Shown piece by piece: positions 1,890 through 19,560 of a stretch of DNA of 23,970 nt; positions within the stretch are counted from its first letter, which is position 1, and every line of letters begins with the position of its first letter. The position numbers and the translations under genes were made by a program. A model generated the notes under the pieces. It worked only from the letters and a program-made list of their open reading frames with translations, was not told the DNA's origin and did no database searches. Source of the DNA: a virus; the IMG/VR virus record IMGVR_UViG_3300030382_004229, positions 1 to 23,970 of that record, one strand, 5' to 3'.

Positions 1890-1984
1890 AAAAAAGAATC
1901 CATGTTAATCAACGTAATAAAAAACCCCCATATTCCAGGGGGTCTTTCATTGGCCTGTTAGATCTACAGGCTCTCCTTCCTTGA
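1886..1984 (+). pseudogene. Truncated remnant of a small phage gene (KRIHVNQ type)
   Basis: An ATG overlaps the endolysin stop (ATGA at 1886-1889), the same coupling used by real genes here. The frame begins MKKRIHVNQRNKK. From memory, a family of about 70-residue phage proteins begins (M)KRIHVNQHVIRxN. After these residues the frame runs straight through the terminator hairpin (1924-1943) and into the 3' end of the convergent gene, ending after 32 codons with no further similarity. The simplest reading is a small gene cut off when the minus-strand cassette was joined here. It could also be a chance frame; the family assignment rests on about nine residues. Confidence 0.4.
1924..1943 (-). terminator. 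Rho-independent terminator of the minus-strand cassette
   Basis: ACCCCC (1924-1929) pairs with GGGGGT (1938-1943) around an 8-nt loop. Read on the minus strand, the stem is followed directly by a T-rich tract (GGGGGTTTTTTATTA), a good intrinsic terminator for the leftward genes ending at 1964. On the plus strand it is followed only by CTTTCATT, so it is weaker there but may also stop transcription leaving the endolysin. It lies between the two convergent transcription units. Confidence 0.8.
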
Positions 1985-2110
1985 TCTCAGATAGGCTTTA
2001 ATCAGCCTTCCAATTAACTCCTGTATTGTGGTATTGTCTTTAATGGCCCGGATCTTCAGGTTTTTTTTGTCATCATCACTGATGTTTGCCTTGACCATTT
2101 TCCATTTCAT
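1964..2110 (-). CDS. Ribbon-helix-helix DNA-binding protein, 48 aa
   Basis: A short frame on the minus strand. The ATG overlaps the stop of the upstream gene (TAATG), so it is translationally coupled. The sequence MVKANISDDDKKNLKIRAIKD followed by NTTIQELIGRLIKAYL fits the Arc/CopG ribbon-helix-helix fold: a short beta strand (VKANIS, about 6-11), helix A with a polar face, the turn with TT before helix B (TIQELIGRLIKAYL), and a basic end. Such proteins dimerise, and the paired strands read the DNA major groove as repressors or antitoxins. No toxin partner is adjacent. It could control its own operon or the nearby iteron or palindrome region. Last gene of the cassette, 21 nt before the terminator. 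Confidence 0.7.
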   Translation of the reverse strand: MKWKMVKANISDDDKKNLKIRAIKDNTTIQELIGRLIKAYLRSRKESL

Positions 2111-2490
2111 TAGTGGACCCCCCTATTCTGTAACGGCTCACCCATTTCATCAGCACATCCAACACAATGATGGGATCCGTATACTATACCAATGTCCTTT
2201 GGGTCATGTCCTTCACCACAACAGGTGCAGTACATTTTAGGTAGACCTGAGATTAAAGTTATACCTCTCTTGTCTAACTTAGATATATCTATTTTTAATC
2301 CATATACATCAGTGAGTTTACTGTTCAATTCAAGGACCTTATGTATTTTCATCTCTGAGAGATCCTCAACTTCAGTCCACCCTTCTTTATCTGGTAGTGA
2401 CAGACTTGCATAAGCCTGTTCCAGGGGACCATCAAAAACAAGTAATGAAGGATATTCTAATCTCCAGATATTGCCAAATAGTTCTATCAT
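2110..2490 (-). CDS. Hypothetical protein with C-terminal zinc-ribbon-like motif
   Basis: 126 residues on the minus strand; its ATG overlaps the preceding stop (ATGA) and its stop overlaps the next start (TAATG). The N-terminal 80 residues are unfamiliar, with a mixed alpha/beta look. The C-terminal part has MYCTCCGEGHD, then about 17 residues later SHHCVGCADEMG: two CxxC-type knuckles (CTCC and CVGC) with flanking histidines, a probable structural zinc site. Placed between a very basic peptide and a ribbon-helix-helix protein, it may take part in nucleic-acid or protein binding, but no enzyme motif is visible. I recognise no family. Confidence 0.75.
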   Translation of the reverse strand: MIELFGNIWRLEYPSLLVFDGPLEQAYASLSLPDKEGWTEVEDLSEMKIHKVLELNSKLTDVYGLKIDISKLDKRGITLISGLPKMYCTCCGEGHDPKDIGIVYGSHHCVGCADEMGEPLQNRGVH

Positions 2491-2636
2491 TTTGCACCTT
2501 TGTAGAATGGTGACCTGGGACTGAAAATACCCTTCTTTTGTAGGTTATGCTTTTTAGCATACTTGGAATTTACTGATTGTGTACCGGCCTTATTCCTGGC
2601 CACTTTTAGTTTACGGGTTAGTTTTGCTTTTTTCAA
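2487..2636 (-). CDS. Very basic 49-residue protein, TTG start
   Basis: A gap between two minus-strand genes is exactly filled by a frame starting at TTG (2636). It overlaps the upstream stop (TTGA) and has AAGGAG 8 nt before it. It stops at TGA overlapping the next ATG (ATGA). The peptide (MKKAKLTRKLKVARNKAG..., ending SPRSPFYKGAK) is about one-third Lys/Arg with almost no acidic residues and no membrane segment. It is probably a nucleic-acid-binding or disordered accessory. The double overlap and good ribosome site are the main support for a real gene; no family is recognised. Confidence 0.6.
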   Translation of the reverse strand: MKKAKLTRKLKVARNKAGTQSVNSKYAKKHNLQKKGIFSPRSPFYKGAK

Positions 2637-2959
2637 CTTCTGTACTCCTTCTTTAATCTGTTAAAAAGAATAGTTGCCTCATCATGGCACCATACCTGGA
2701 TGGATTGTGCAAACTTGAGGAACTCATTTTTAATAGTACAACATCTCTGGCATTTTATTCCTTCGGTTGCCTGATTGGATTTTGAGATAACTCCGGTATG
2801 TTGTGCCATCACTGTTTTCATTCCATCTTCCGTGGCCCTGTCACACATCTGTATTATCAGATCCTCAACGGCTCTGTTTATACTGTCTACGGCCAGTGTA
2901 CTTAAACTCATTTGTCTTGAATTGATCAATTTCTTGATCTTGGTTATTTGTATTAGCAT
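2633..2959 (-). CDS. Bacterial-type histone-fold protein with Cys-rich C-terminal extension
   Basis: 108 residues, minus strand; AAGGAG lies about 6 nt before the ATG. Residues 4-57 match a histone fold of the short bacterial type: helix 1 (ITKIKKLINSRQM), loop SLSTL, long helix 2 (AVDSINRAVEDLIIQMCDRATEDG, about 23-46), the diagnostic loop MKTVMAQHTGVI equivalent to the R/K-T-I/V segment, then the start of helix 3. Spacing from helix 2 to KTV equals that in Bdellovibrio Bd0055-like histones as I remember them. Histone-fold proteins dimerise and bend or coat DNA. Residues 58-108 are an added tail with C70, C73, C74, C91 and H92 (possible metal site) and a basic end. Third-helix residues are atypical (H54, T55), so DNA binding is inferred. 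Confidence 0.65.
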   Translation of the reverse strand: MLIQITKIKKLINSRQMSLSTLAVDSINRAVEDLIIQMCDRATEDGMKTVMAQHTGVISKSNQATEGIKCQRCCTIKNEFLKFAQSIQVWCHDEATILFNRLKKEYRS

Positions 2960-3141
2960 ATTGACTCCTTTTTATACTTTTTCATTAAATCAGATACCTT
3001 TGTCAATTTCTGGTAAGAGATAACATCCAACCCAATAACATCCATTTGATGATATAGATGATTTAAGTTTTTTGCTTTTAATTCTTCTGTTATCTCTCTT
3101 TCACCATCTGTAAAAACTACACTGTACTTTTTCATTACCAT
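2953..3141 (-). CDS. Hypothetical protein, 62 aa, first gene of minus-strand cassette
   Basis: Starts at the first ATG, 5 nt after AGGAG (AGGAGTTAACATG); a second ATG two codons in is possible but more poorly spaced. The sequence suggests two beta strands (KKYSVVFTDG, REITEELKAKN), a helix (NLNHLYHQMDVIG), a strand (DVISYQKLT) and a basic helix (LMKKYKKESIC). This is the alternating layout of many small phage regulators, but I recognise no family. It overlaps the histone-fold gene by 7 nt and is the promoter-proximal gene of the leftward operon. Confidence 0.7.
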   Translation of the reverse strand: MVMKKYSVVFTDGEREITEELKAKNLNHLYHQMDVIGLDVISYQKLTKVSDLMKKYKKESIC

Positions 3142-3240: not shown

Positions 3241-3393
3241 TTGTGCACTAAAAAATCACAATTTGTGCACTAAAAAATCACAATTTGTGCACTAAAAAAT
3301 CACAATTTGTGCAGTATAAAATCACAATTGTTCAGTGCAAACTTACAATTTGTTCAGTAAAAACTTACAATTTGTTCAGTAAAAAATCACAAT
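3241..3393 (+). repeat. Array of seven 22-nt iteron-like direct repeats
   Basis: Tandem copies start at 3241, 3263, 3285, 3307, 3328, 3350 and 3372. Six are 22 nt and the fourth is 21 nt. Copies 1-3 are identical and begin TTGTGCACTAAAAAATCACA; copies 5-7 begin TTGTTCAG and copies 5 and 6 have CTTACAAT at the end; copy 4 is intermediate. Each unit begins TTGT and ends ACAA, so it is also an imperfect inverted repeat. The period equals two helical turns, placing every copy on the same face of the DNA, as in plasmid and phage iterons or multi-site operators. The unit is not a multiple of three, so it is not a protein repeat. Confidence 0.85.
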
Positions 3394-17652: not shown

Positions 17653-19560
17653 ATGGCAACATTAACCGGAACAAAAATAAAAAACACTTATAAGGACCTG
17701 CTCCAGGTATCAAACTCAAATGCAGGTGTAGATGGGACACTGAGAAATGTATCTGATGGTGAGGGGACGGACTCAGTTCTTCAGATCTCATCCAGTGCTG
17801 TTAAATCAACAGGAACCTTAGAGGTTACCGGTGTATCTACCTTGACCGGGGCTGTTACTGCAAGCGGTGGAGTGACTGGTGCCGTTACAGGAAATGTTAC
17901 CGGTAATGTCACGGGGAATCTTACTGGGAATGTTACTGGGAATGTTACTGGGAATGTTACTGGGAATGTTACTGGTGATGTAACGGGAAATATTGCAAGT
18001 ACAGGGACATCTACATTTTCTACTGTAGATATAAATGGTGGAGCCATAGATGGAGTTACTATAGGAACCAACTCAGCAGTGACAGAACTTCAGGTTGATA
18101 ATGTAAATATTAATGGCAGTGTTGTAAAAAGCACAAGTGGAATGCTATTGTTTAATACTGCCGATAATAATAATATATTATTAACACCTAATGGGACAGG
18201 AAGTGTTAGTTGTACTAATAAGTTAGTTGCAAATGCCGATTTAGAGGTTACTGGTGAGGCAGATATTGATAATATTAATATAAATGGTAATAGTATAACA
18301 TCAACGGATACAAATGGTAATATAGAGTTATCCCCTCACGGTACGGGAACAGTTGTTATAGATACTGATCTTGATGTTGATAATATAAATATTAATGGTA
18401 ATAGTATAACCTCTACTGATACAAATGGTAATATAGTACTAACCCCCCATGGTACTGGTGAAGTTGATATAACTAATGCTGATCTTATTGGTGGAACCGT
18501 AGGGAATGTCACTCCTGTAACAAAATTAAAATGTGATAATATGCAGTTGGATGGCAACACTATAAGTTCAACGGATACTAATGGTAATATAGCGTTAACA
18601 CCTCACGGTACAGGTGAGGTTGATATAACTAAAGTAGATATAGCCTCCGGGGAAATAGATGGAGTTACCATAGGGACTACATCTGTTTGTACAGATCTTA
18701 GGGTGGATAATTTGAAATTAGATGGCAACACTATAAGTTCAACGGATGTTAATGGTCAAATAACATTAAATCCTAATGGTACAGGGAAAGTTTATACAGA
18801 TGCAGATATACTCCCAGTATCAGACAGTGGGGGGACTGACCTTGGGAGTGCTTCTTATAGGTTTCAGACTGGTTACTTTAAAAATACAGTAGATGTTTAT
18901 GGTTATGTTCAGACAGATGAGATAAGAGAATTAACAGCAGATAATGGTGTAACGATTGATGGTGTAGATATAAAGGATAGTGAGATTAGTGATGTAAATA
19001 GTTTGGCTGTTGATAATATTACGATTGACGGAAATGCTATAACCTCTACCAATACAAATGGAGATCTTACATTACAGGCGAATGGAACAGGGAAAGTTGA
19101 GGTAACTTCTGCTGACGATGATCCTTCTTTTAGAGTGACGGGTGACGATCCTGATATGGATGTGAATATTAATAGTAGTTCAGATTCAGATTTAGCCGAA
19201 TATAGAATGAGTGTTAATGGGGCAATGAAGGGACATATAGCATATGATAAGGATATTGGTGCAGTTAGGATAGTTACATATGGTACTGATGAAAATATAA
19301 ATTTATCTCCTAATGGTACAGGATCAGTTGTTATAAATACTGATCTTGATGTAGATAATATTAATATAGATGGCAACACTATAAGTTCTACTGACACTAA
19401 TGGTGATATAACTTTATACCCTAATGGGACAGGGGAGATCAACTTTCGGGTGACTGCTACTTCAGGGGCTCCTTCTGGTACATCTTATTCTATCCCTCTT
19501 TCGGTTGCAGGAACTACTTACTACTTAGAACTAAAAACTGCACCTCCAGGTGGTGGATAA
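17653..19560 (+). CDS. Beta-repeat fibre-like structural protein
   Basis: 635 residues. Residues about 78-113 are nine VTGN-type tetrapeptides encoded by tandem 12-nt repeats. From about 150 to 600 there are degenerate repeats of about 35-45 residues built on NINGNSITSTDTNGNIxLxPHGTGxVxI, typical of extended beta-helix or trimeric beta-fibres. The C-terminus ends in a short globular region (GAPSGTSYSIPLSVAGTTYYLELK) and PPGGG. Such proteins are trimeric fibres or capsid/neck appendages that touch the host surface. Here it lies between connector and tail nozzle, so a head- or neck-attached fibre is possible as well as a tail fibre. It stops in TAATG with the next gene. Confidence 0.7.
   Translation: MATLTGTKIKNTYKDLLQVSNSNAGVDGTLRNVSDGEGTDSVLQISSSAVKSTGTLEVTGVSTLTGAVTASGGVTGAVTGNVTGNVTGNLTGNVTGNVTGNVTGNVTGDVTGNIASTGTSTFSTVDINGGAIDGVTIGTNSAVTELQVDNVNINGSVVKSTSGMLLFNTADNNNILLTPNGTGSVSCTNKLVANADLEVTGEADIDNININGNSITSTDTNGNIELSPHGTGTVVIDTDLDVDNININGNSITSTDTNGNIVLTPHGTGEVDITNADLIGGTVGNVTPVTKLKCDNMQLDGNTISSTDTNGNIALTPHGTGEVDITKVDIASGEIDGVTIGTTSVCTDLRVDNLKLDGNTISSTDVNGQITLNPNGTGKVYTDADILPVSDSGGTDLGSASYRFQTGYFKNTVDVYGYVQTDEIRELTADNGVTIDGVDIKDSEISDVNSLAVDNITIDGNAITSTNTNGDLTLQANGTGKVEVTSADDDPSFRVTGDDPDMDVNINSSSDSDLAEYRMSVNGAMKGHIAYDKDIGAVRIVTYGTDENINLSPNGTGSVVINTDLDVDNINIDGNTISSTDTNGDITLYPNGTGEINFRVTATSGAPSGTSYSIPLSVAGTTYYLELKTAPPGGG
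17884..17991 (+). repeat. Nine tandem 12-nt repeats coding VTGN
   Basis: Nine consecutive 12-nt units (GTTACTGGGAAT and variants) lie in frame within the fibre gene. Three central copies (17932-17967) are identical and the outer ones differ at one to four bases. Identical inner copies suggest recent slippage or expansion, so copy number may vary between relatives. Confidence 0.9.

Follow-up and report, generated by a model that had tools for sequence, protein, structure and literature searches.

An alpha3-type phage histone with a C-terminal helix, encoded in the accessory operon of an uncultivated tailed phage

What is the small protein with a cysteine-containing tail that an uncultivated phage encodes in a compact minus-strand operon, and what might the tail do? 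Phage histones were described in 2024 from structure predictions (PMC11390915), and our literature search found no experimental study of any phage histone. A preliminary description of this DNA had proposed a phage-encoded histone of bacterial type followed by a tail outside the fold. The analysis reported here adds a further member to the phage histones, a category known from predictions, and gives a different account of the tail.

The histone gene and its operon

The window (the whole stretch of DNA analyzed) is a 23,970-base virus record in IMG/VR that encodes a terminase, a P22-like portal, a RecE-like exonuclease and a DnaD-like helicase loader. Its major capsid protein is only 22.7% identical to a Bradyrhizobium phage protein, which is too weak a match for a host to be assigned from it. 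The open reading frame that had been marked at 2633-2959 is real. It is read on the minus strand, from 2959 to 2633, and encodes 108 amino acids; a strong ribosome site (AAGGAG) lies 5 nt ahead of the ATG, and the plus-strand reading of the same interval is full of stops. The gene belongs to a minus-strand operon of five open reading frames that runs from 3141 down to 1964, and it overlaps its neighbors by a few bases. The features are as follows.

2633-2959, minus strand: phage histone gene, 108 amino acids, ATG at 2959 (open reading frame call, histone matches and AlphaFold2)
2792-2959, minus strand: alpha3-type histone-fold domain, residues 1-56 (AlphaFold2 and HBb match)
2729-2791, minus strand: flexible linker, residues 57-77, with C70, C73 and C74 (low pLDDT, variable in relatives)
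2639-2728, minus strand: C-terminal helix, residues 78-107, with C91-H92; proposed tetramerization element (AlphaFold2 and conserved pattern)
2953-3141, minus strand: 62-residue open reading frame that opens the operon and shares 7 nt with the histone gene (no family match)
2487-2636, minus strand: basic 49-residue open reading frame overlapping the histone stop codon
2110-2490, minus strand: cysteine-containing 126-residue open reading frame of the same operon (no family match)
1964-2110, minus strand: ribbon-helix-helix-like 48-residue open reading frame with which the operon ends (PF20605 match below cutoff, E = 0.0042)
1925-1941, minus strand: terminator-like hairpin and T run after the operon (the number of such sites is near chance expectation)
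3241-3393, no strand assigned: seven 22-bp repeats in tandem, separating the histone operon from the rightward early genes (TRF period 22, 90% matches)

The cysteines of the 126-residue protein are clustered (CTCCGEGH ... HHCVGCADE). The 22-bp repeats, which recur at about two helical turns in a divergent intergenic region, look iteron- or operator-like, and the 48-residue ribbon-helix-helix-like protein is a candidate autoregulator acting on them. We do not count the array as part of the histone system, since it is absent at other histone loci.

A histone fold with a truncated alpha3

Residues 2 to 54 match HBb (Bd0055) of Bdellovibrio bacteriovorus (PDB 8fvx) with an E value of 7.6e-6 in a phmmer search of PDB sequences. 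With a profile built from four relatives, alpha3-type histones rank first (HBb, 9.8e-7; archaeal HTkC, 2.8e-4; Leptospira HLp, 1.7e-3), and nothing unrelated falls below 0.25. The best Pfam family is PF00808, which comprises CBF/NF-Y and archaeal histones; its match is weak, with an E value of 0.0032 that is below the family's cutoff. A Pfam match to Elong_Iki1 (E = 0.0085) was rejected because it is likewise below cutoff and is at odds with the fold.

The AlphaFold2 model, which is of a single chain and was built from 12 aligned sequences (mean pLDDT, 81.6; pTM, 0.44), has helices at residues 5 to 14 (alpha1), 21 to 44 (alpha2), 52 to 55 (alpha3) and 78 to 107 (C-terminal). The preliminary description had read a short-long-short fold, with an alpha2 of 24 residues, from the sequence, and the model bears this out; its block pLDDT is 79 to 92 for residues 1 to 50 and 72 for residues 51 to 60. 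Superfamily alpha3 is defined by an alpha3 of 3 to 4 residues and a shortened alpha2, and both are found here, with 4 and 24 residues, respectively. When the model was compared with the PDB by Foldseek, the first nine matches were all HBb, HLp or HTkC, with TM-scores of 0.72 to 0.85 by target length; the best E value is only 1.8e-3, which is not surprising for a domain of 55 residues. Sequence and structure agree on histone identity, well beyond chance. We conclude that this is a genuine histone-fold protein of the alpha3 superfamily, HBb-like and with a truncated alpha3, and that the histone fold which the preliminary description had proposed for the first 57 residues holds; neither of the outcomes that it had named as contrary, a different helix arrangement or the lack of a profile match to histone-fold families, was seen.

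That PF00808 is the best Pfam family could also suggest an NF-Y/CBF-like regulator that controls transcription at specific DNA sequences, rather than an architectural protein, and the setting in a small operon with a ribbon-helix-helix-like gene, beside a repeat array, would suit one. However, the closest solved relatives are all architectural alpha3 histones and the repeat array was not found at other histone loci, and we consider a regulator of this kind highly improbable.

Assignment to the phage histones

Phage histones (Schwab et al. 2024, Nat Commun, PMC11390915) are a category of alpha3 histones, exemplified by A0A2E7QIQ9. They are defined by a C-terminal helical domain and a predicted tetramer, so that they may bridge DNA, and they are marked by conserved K10 and K49, a highly conserved Arg at the side of the dimer and the absence of an RxTxxxD motif (PMC11390915). 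The protein of the window has a helical domain after the fold (residues 78 to 107; 74 to 99 in the relative from contig L014). Its K9 and K48 are exactly K10 and K49 in the numbering of L001; K7, K9 and K48 are invariant in two alignments of the family (A2 and A4), and L054 has Arg at the position of K9. R29 is present in 14 of 14 full-length sequences, and we infer that it is the Arg in the figure of PMC11390915. The RxTxxxD motif, which is R51-K-T ... D58 in HBb, is replaced by M47-K-T ... H54. The terminase and portal genes are those of a tailed phage. Because every mark examined is present, we file the protein as a phage histone; it is a member of that category, in which the tetramer is known as a published prediction. 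The earlier proposal of a bacterial-type histone encoded by a phage within an accessory operon thus takes a more specific form, that of an HBb-like alpha3 histone.

Other categories fit less well. The N-terminal ZZ zinc-finger domain of ZZ histones is not seen, since the fold begins at residue 2, the cysteines are C-terminal and Pfam gave no ZZ match. The AlphaFold2 model has a single fold, not the two folds per chain of a DUF1931-type pseudodimer. Nor is this a bacterial dimer histone of the HBb type, since there is an extension of about 50 residues with a helix and the R51-D58 clamp is replaced by M47 and H54. HBb (PDB 8fvx, 8cmp and 9ezz) is 38% identical over a 55-column structural alignment, but it is a chromatin protein of the host, ends after the fold and carries the clamp. 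The face-to-face alpha3 histones HLp (Leptospira) and HTkC (Thermococcus) have the same truncated-alpha3 fold (Foldseek probability, 1.00), but they tetramerize via their histone folds without an added helix (PMC11390915, PMC12701072). Compared with the published description of the phage histones, the protein of the window adds a CxxC before the C-terminal helix and a C-H pair within it.

Distribution and selection

Scans of IMG/VR yielded 14 distinct full-length members including that of the window, all in uncultivated phages; the others are on contigs L005, L006, L007, L001, L002, L022, L010, L003, L013, L014, L034, L035 and L054. A near-copy of the L014 protein (L031) is outside this count, and L015, L037 and L053 carry fragments. 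BFVD holds two near-full-length relatives, A0A516LIY4 (47% identity) and A0A516M1G1 (40%). No relative was found in GTDB species genomes by two pattern-based contig scans, which distant prophage copies can escape, or among the 50,697 phage records of INPHARED by tblastn with three members as queries, and hence the family has no named host or cultured phage. PHROGs and NCBIfam have no matching family. A short, tail-less set is found on L016, L017 and L038. The genes at L016 6001-6204 and L038 8351-8557 encode 68 to 69 amino acids, keep the start IQ(K/I)(S/T)KVKK and replace GMKT with NVKR; they are perhaps a second type of phage histone.

Pairwise dN/dS point estimates are 0.07, 0.08 and 0.12 in three pairs and are low in both the fold and the tail, which points to purifying selection on the family. 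For the pair L001 and L002, which has few changes and low divergence, dN/dS is 0.6. Comparison of the window with L005, the relative nearest to it, shows saturation at synonymous sites (pS, 0.86; pN, 0.23).

The C-terminal helix and the cysteines

C70, C73, C74, C91 and H92 are all present as originally listed, and the 50 residues that carry them are indeed separate from the histone fold. The notion of an unusual, metal-site-like tail was not supported. Residues 78 to 107 form a confidently predicted helix (block pLDDT of 85 to 95 over residues 81 to 108) rather than an unstructured metal tail, and this helix is common to the family and belongs to the features by which phage histones were defined (PMC11390915). 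The tail is not odd, because its helix is the phage-histone family's own. The pattern EFxxFAxSxQxxCxxxA is conserved in the helix across relatives, and the L014 protein, which lacks CxxC, is predicted to have the helix too. In a shuffle test the helix is amphipathic in 8 of the 14 sequences (P = 0.002 to 0.035), with P = 0.077 for the window. The tails of the L007 and L010 proteins are divergent.

Among the 14 full-length members, C91 is kept in 12 and the C91-H92 pair in 9, while CxxC (C70/C73) is found in only 6; on these counts a zinc site conserved across the family was rejected. It could still be that, in the subclade of the window, CxxC and C91-H92 bind zinc or form disulfides that stabilize or gate tetramerization. 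Five of the six CxxC members also have the CH pair. However, seven members have C91 without CxxC (four with the C91-H92 pair and three with the Cys alone), L007 has CxxC without CH, and CxxC borders the part of the linker that is modeled with low confidence (pLDDT below 50 at residues 60 to 69). In addition, CxxC clusters on the family tree, which is poorly resolved, and needs only 1 to 3 changes there, so the covariation of CxxC with CH is thin. We regard such a site as quite unlikely, and we think it very doubtful that it would act as a metal- or redox-sensitive switch, with a dimer that bends DNA in one state and a tetramer that bridges it in the other.

DNA contacts and proposed mode of action

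HBb bends DNA as a dimer, and ten of its DNA-contact residues have been named (PMC11317129). In the phmmer alignment five of the ten are identical in the protein of the window (K10, K12, S24, K52 and T53 of HBb, corresponding to K7, K9, S20, K48 and T49) and two are conservatively changed (S9 to T6 and N22 to S18). The contacts T8, K16 and R57 are lost (I5, N13 and Q53), as is the R51-D58 clamp (M47 and H54). The fold domain is weakly basic, with a net charge of +1; that of the whole protein is +5. By analogy with HBb (PMC11317129), the protein would bind the DNA backbone independently of sequence.

We give a probability of roughly 55% to the following explanation. Two chains of this alpha3 phage histone would pair through the histone fold, and the dimer would bind the DNA backbone nonspecifically through the kept positions T6, K7, K9, S18, S20, K48 and T49. 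Packing of C-terminal helices between two dimers could then yield a tetramer able to hold two duplexes, of phage or host DNA, together. Bridging by such a dimer of dimers is suggested by the helix and by a prediction published for one relative. A model for how such a protein might work is MJ1647 of Methanococcales, which belongs to a different histone category; its C-terminal element is cited in PMC11390915 as having been shown experimentally to allow tetramerization and DNA bridging. Compaction of DNA by the protein is plausible from its homology to HBb. A decoy function, also raised in the preliminary description, is conjecture.

The same fold would also be compatible with a dimer that bends DNA like HBb and that uses its C-terminal helix to bind a partner protein and bring it to DNA. 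Among solved structures the nearest relative, HBb, is a DNA-bending dimer (PMC11317129), tail-less short relatives exist (L016 and L038), and the operon of the window also encodes the basic 49-residue and ribbon-helix-helix-like proteins. On the other hand, the helix is conserved while the neighbors vary between phages, so that any partner would need to come from the host or from a phage gene at another locus. We consider recruitment of this kind unlikely and prefer helix-mediated bridging. These probabilities need not sum to one, since both the zinc or disulfide site discussed above and the protection from nucleases discussed below are compatible with bridging.

Dispensability and genomic neighborhood

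Nine contigs with a shared terminase reach at least 6.4 kb beyond it on the relevant side, and seven of them carry the histone gene (two of the seven are nearly identical); a tenth contig, which reaches 3.3 kb beyond the terminase, is outside this count. Contig L047 keeps the SprT-like gene and the 170-residue gene that directly precedes the histone gene in its sibling L026. No histone was found in L047 by tblastn or profile search, and another small gene lies where L026 has the histone gene. Since L047 keeps these neighbors of L026 without the histone, the histone gene is accessory, an optional cargo rather than a fixed packaging protein. L058, with the same terminase, has no histone gene either. 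With 14 distinct full-length members, and with a sibling in which the gene is missing from the same neighborhood, it becomes testable whether phages use histones on their own or on host DNA.

The neighborhood fits an early or lysogeny-type accessory region. Upstream of the histone gene, two phage backbones have either ArdC-type anti-restriction genes (ArdcN plus MPTase-PolyVal) or SprT-like genes. This would be in keeping with an anti-defense accessory region in which the histone covers phage DNA on entry and protects it from nucleases of the host. However, the window, L020/L021 and L034 to L039 have no such neighbors, and L047 has the SprT-like gene without a histone, so the link may reflect a shared backbone only. 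A shielding role seems to us very improbable. ArdC-type genes are found upstream of the histone gene at L018 7032-7991, L019 6210-7133, L023 8075-9064, L027 7865-8926 and L031 1465-2448. A strict partnership of histone and ArdC was not retained, since other loci have SprT-like genes or neither. The SprT-like protein of L025 matches Pfam below cutoff, and in L020/L021 an integrase-like gene (PF00589, also below cutoff) directly follows the histone gene. Elsewhere in the window, positions 17653-19560 encode a 635-residue protein in which TGNVTGN units recur along with other internal repeats; it is probably a tail fiber or other structural protein.
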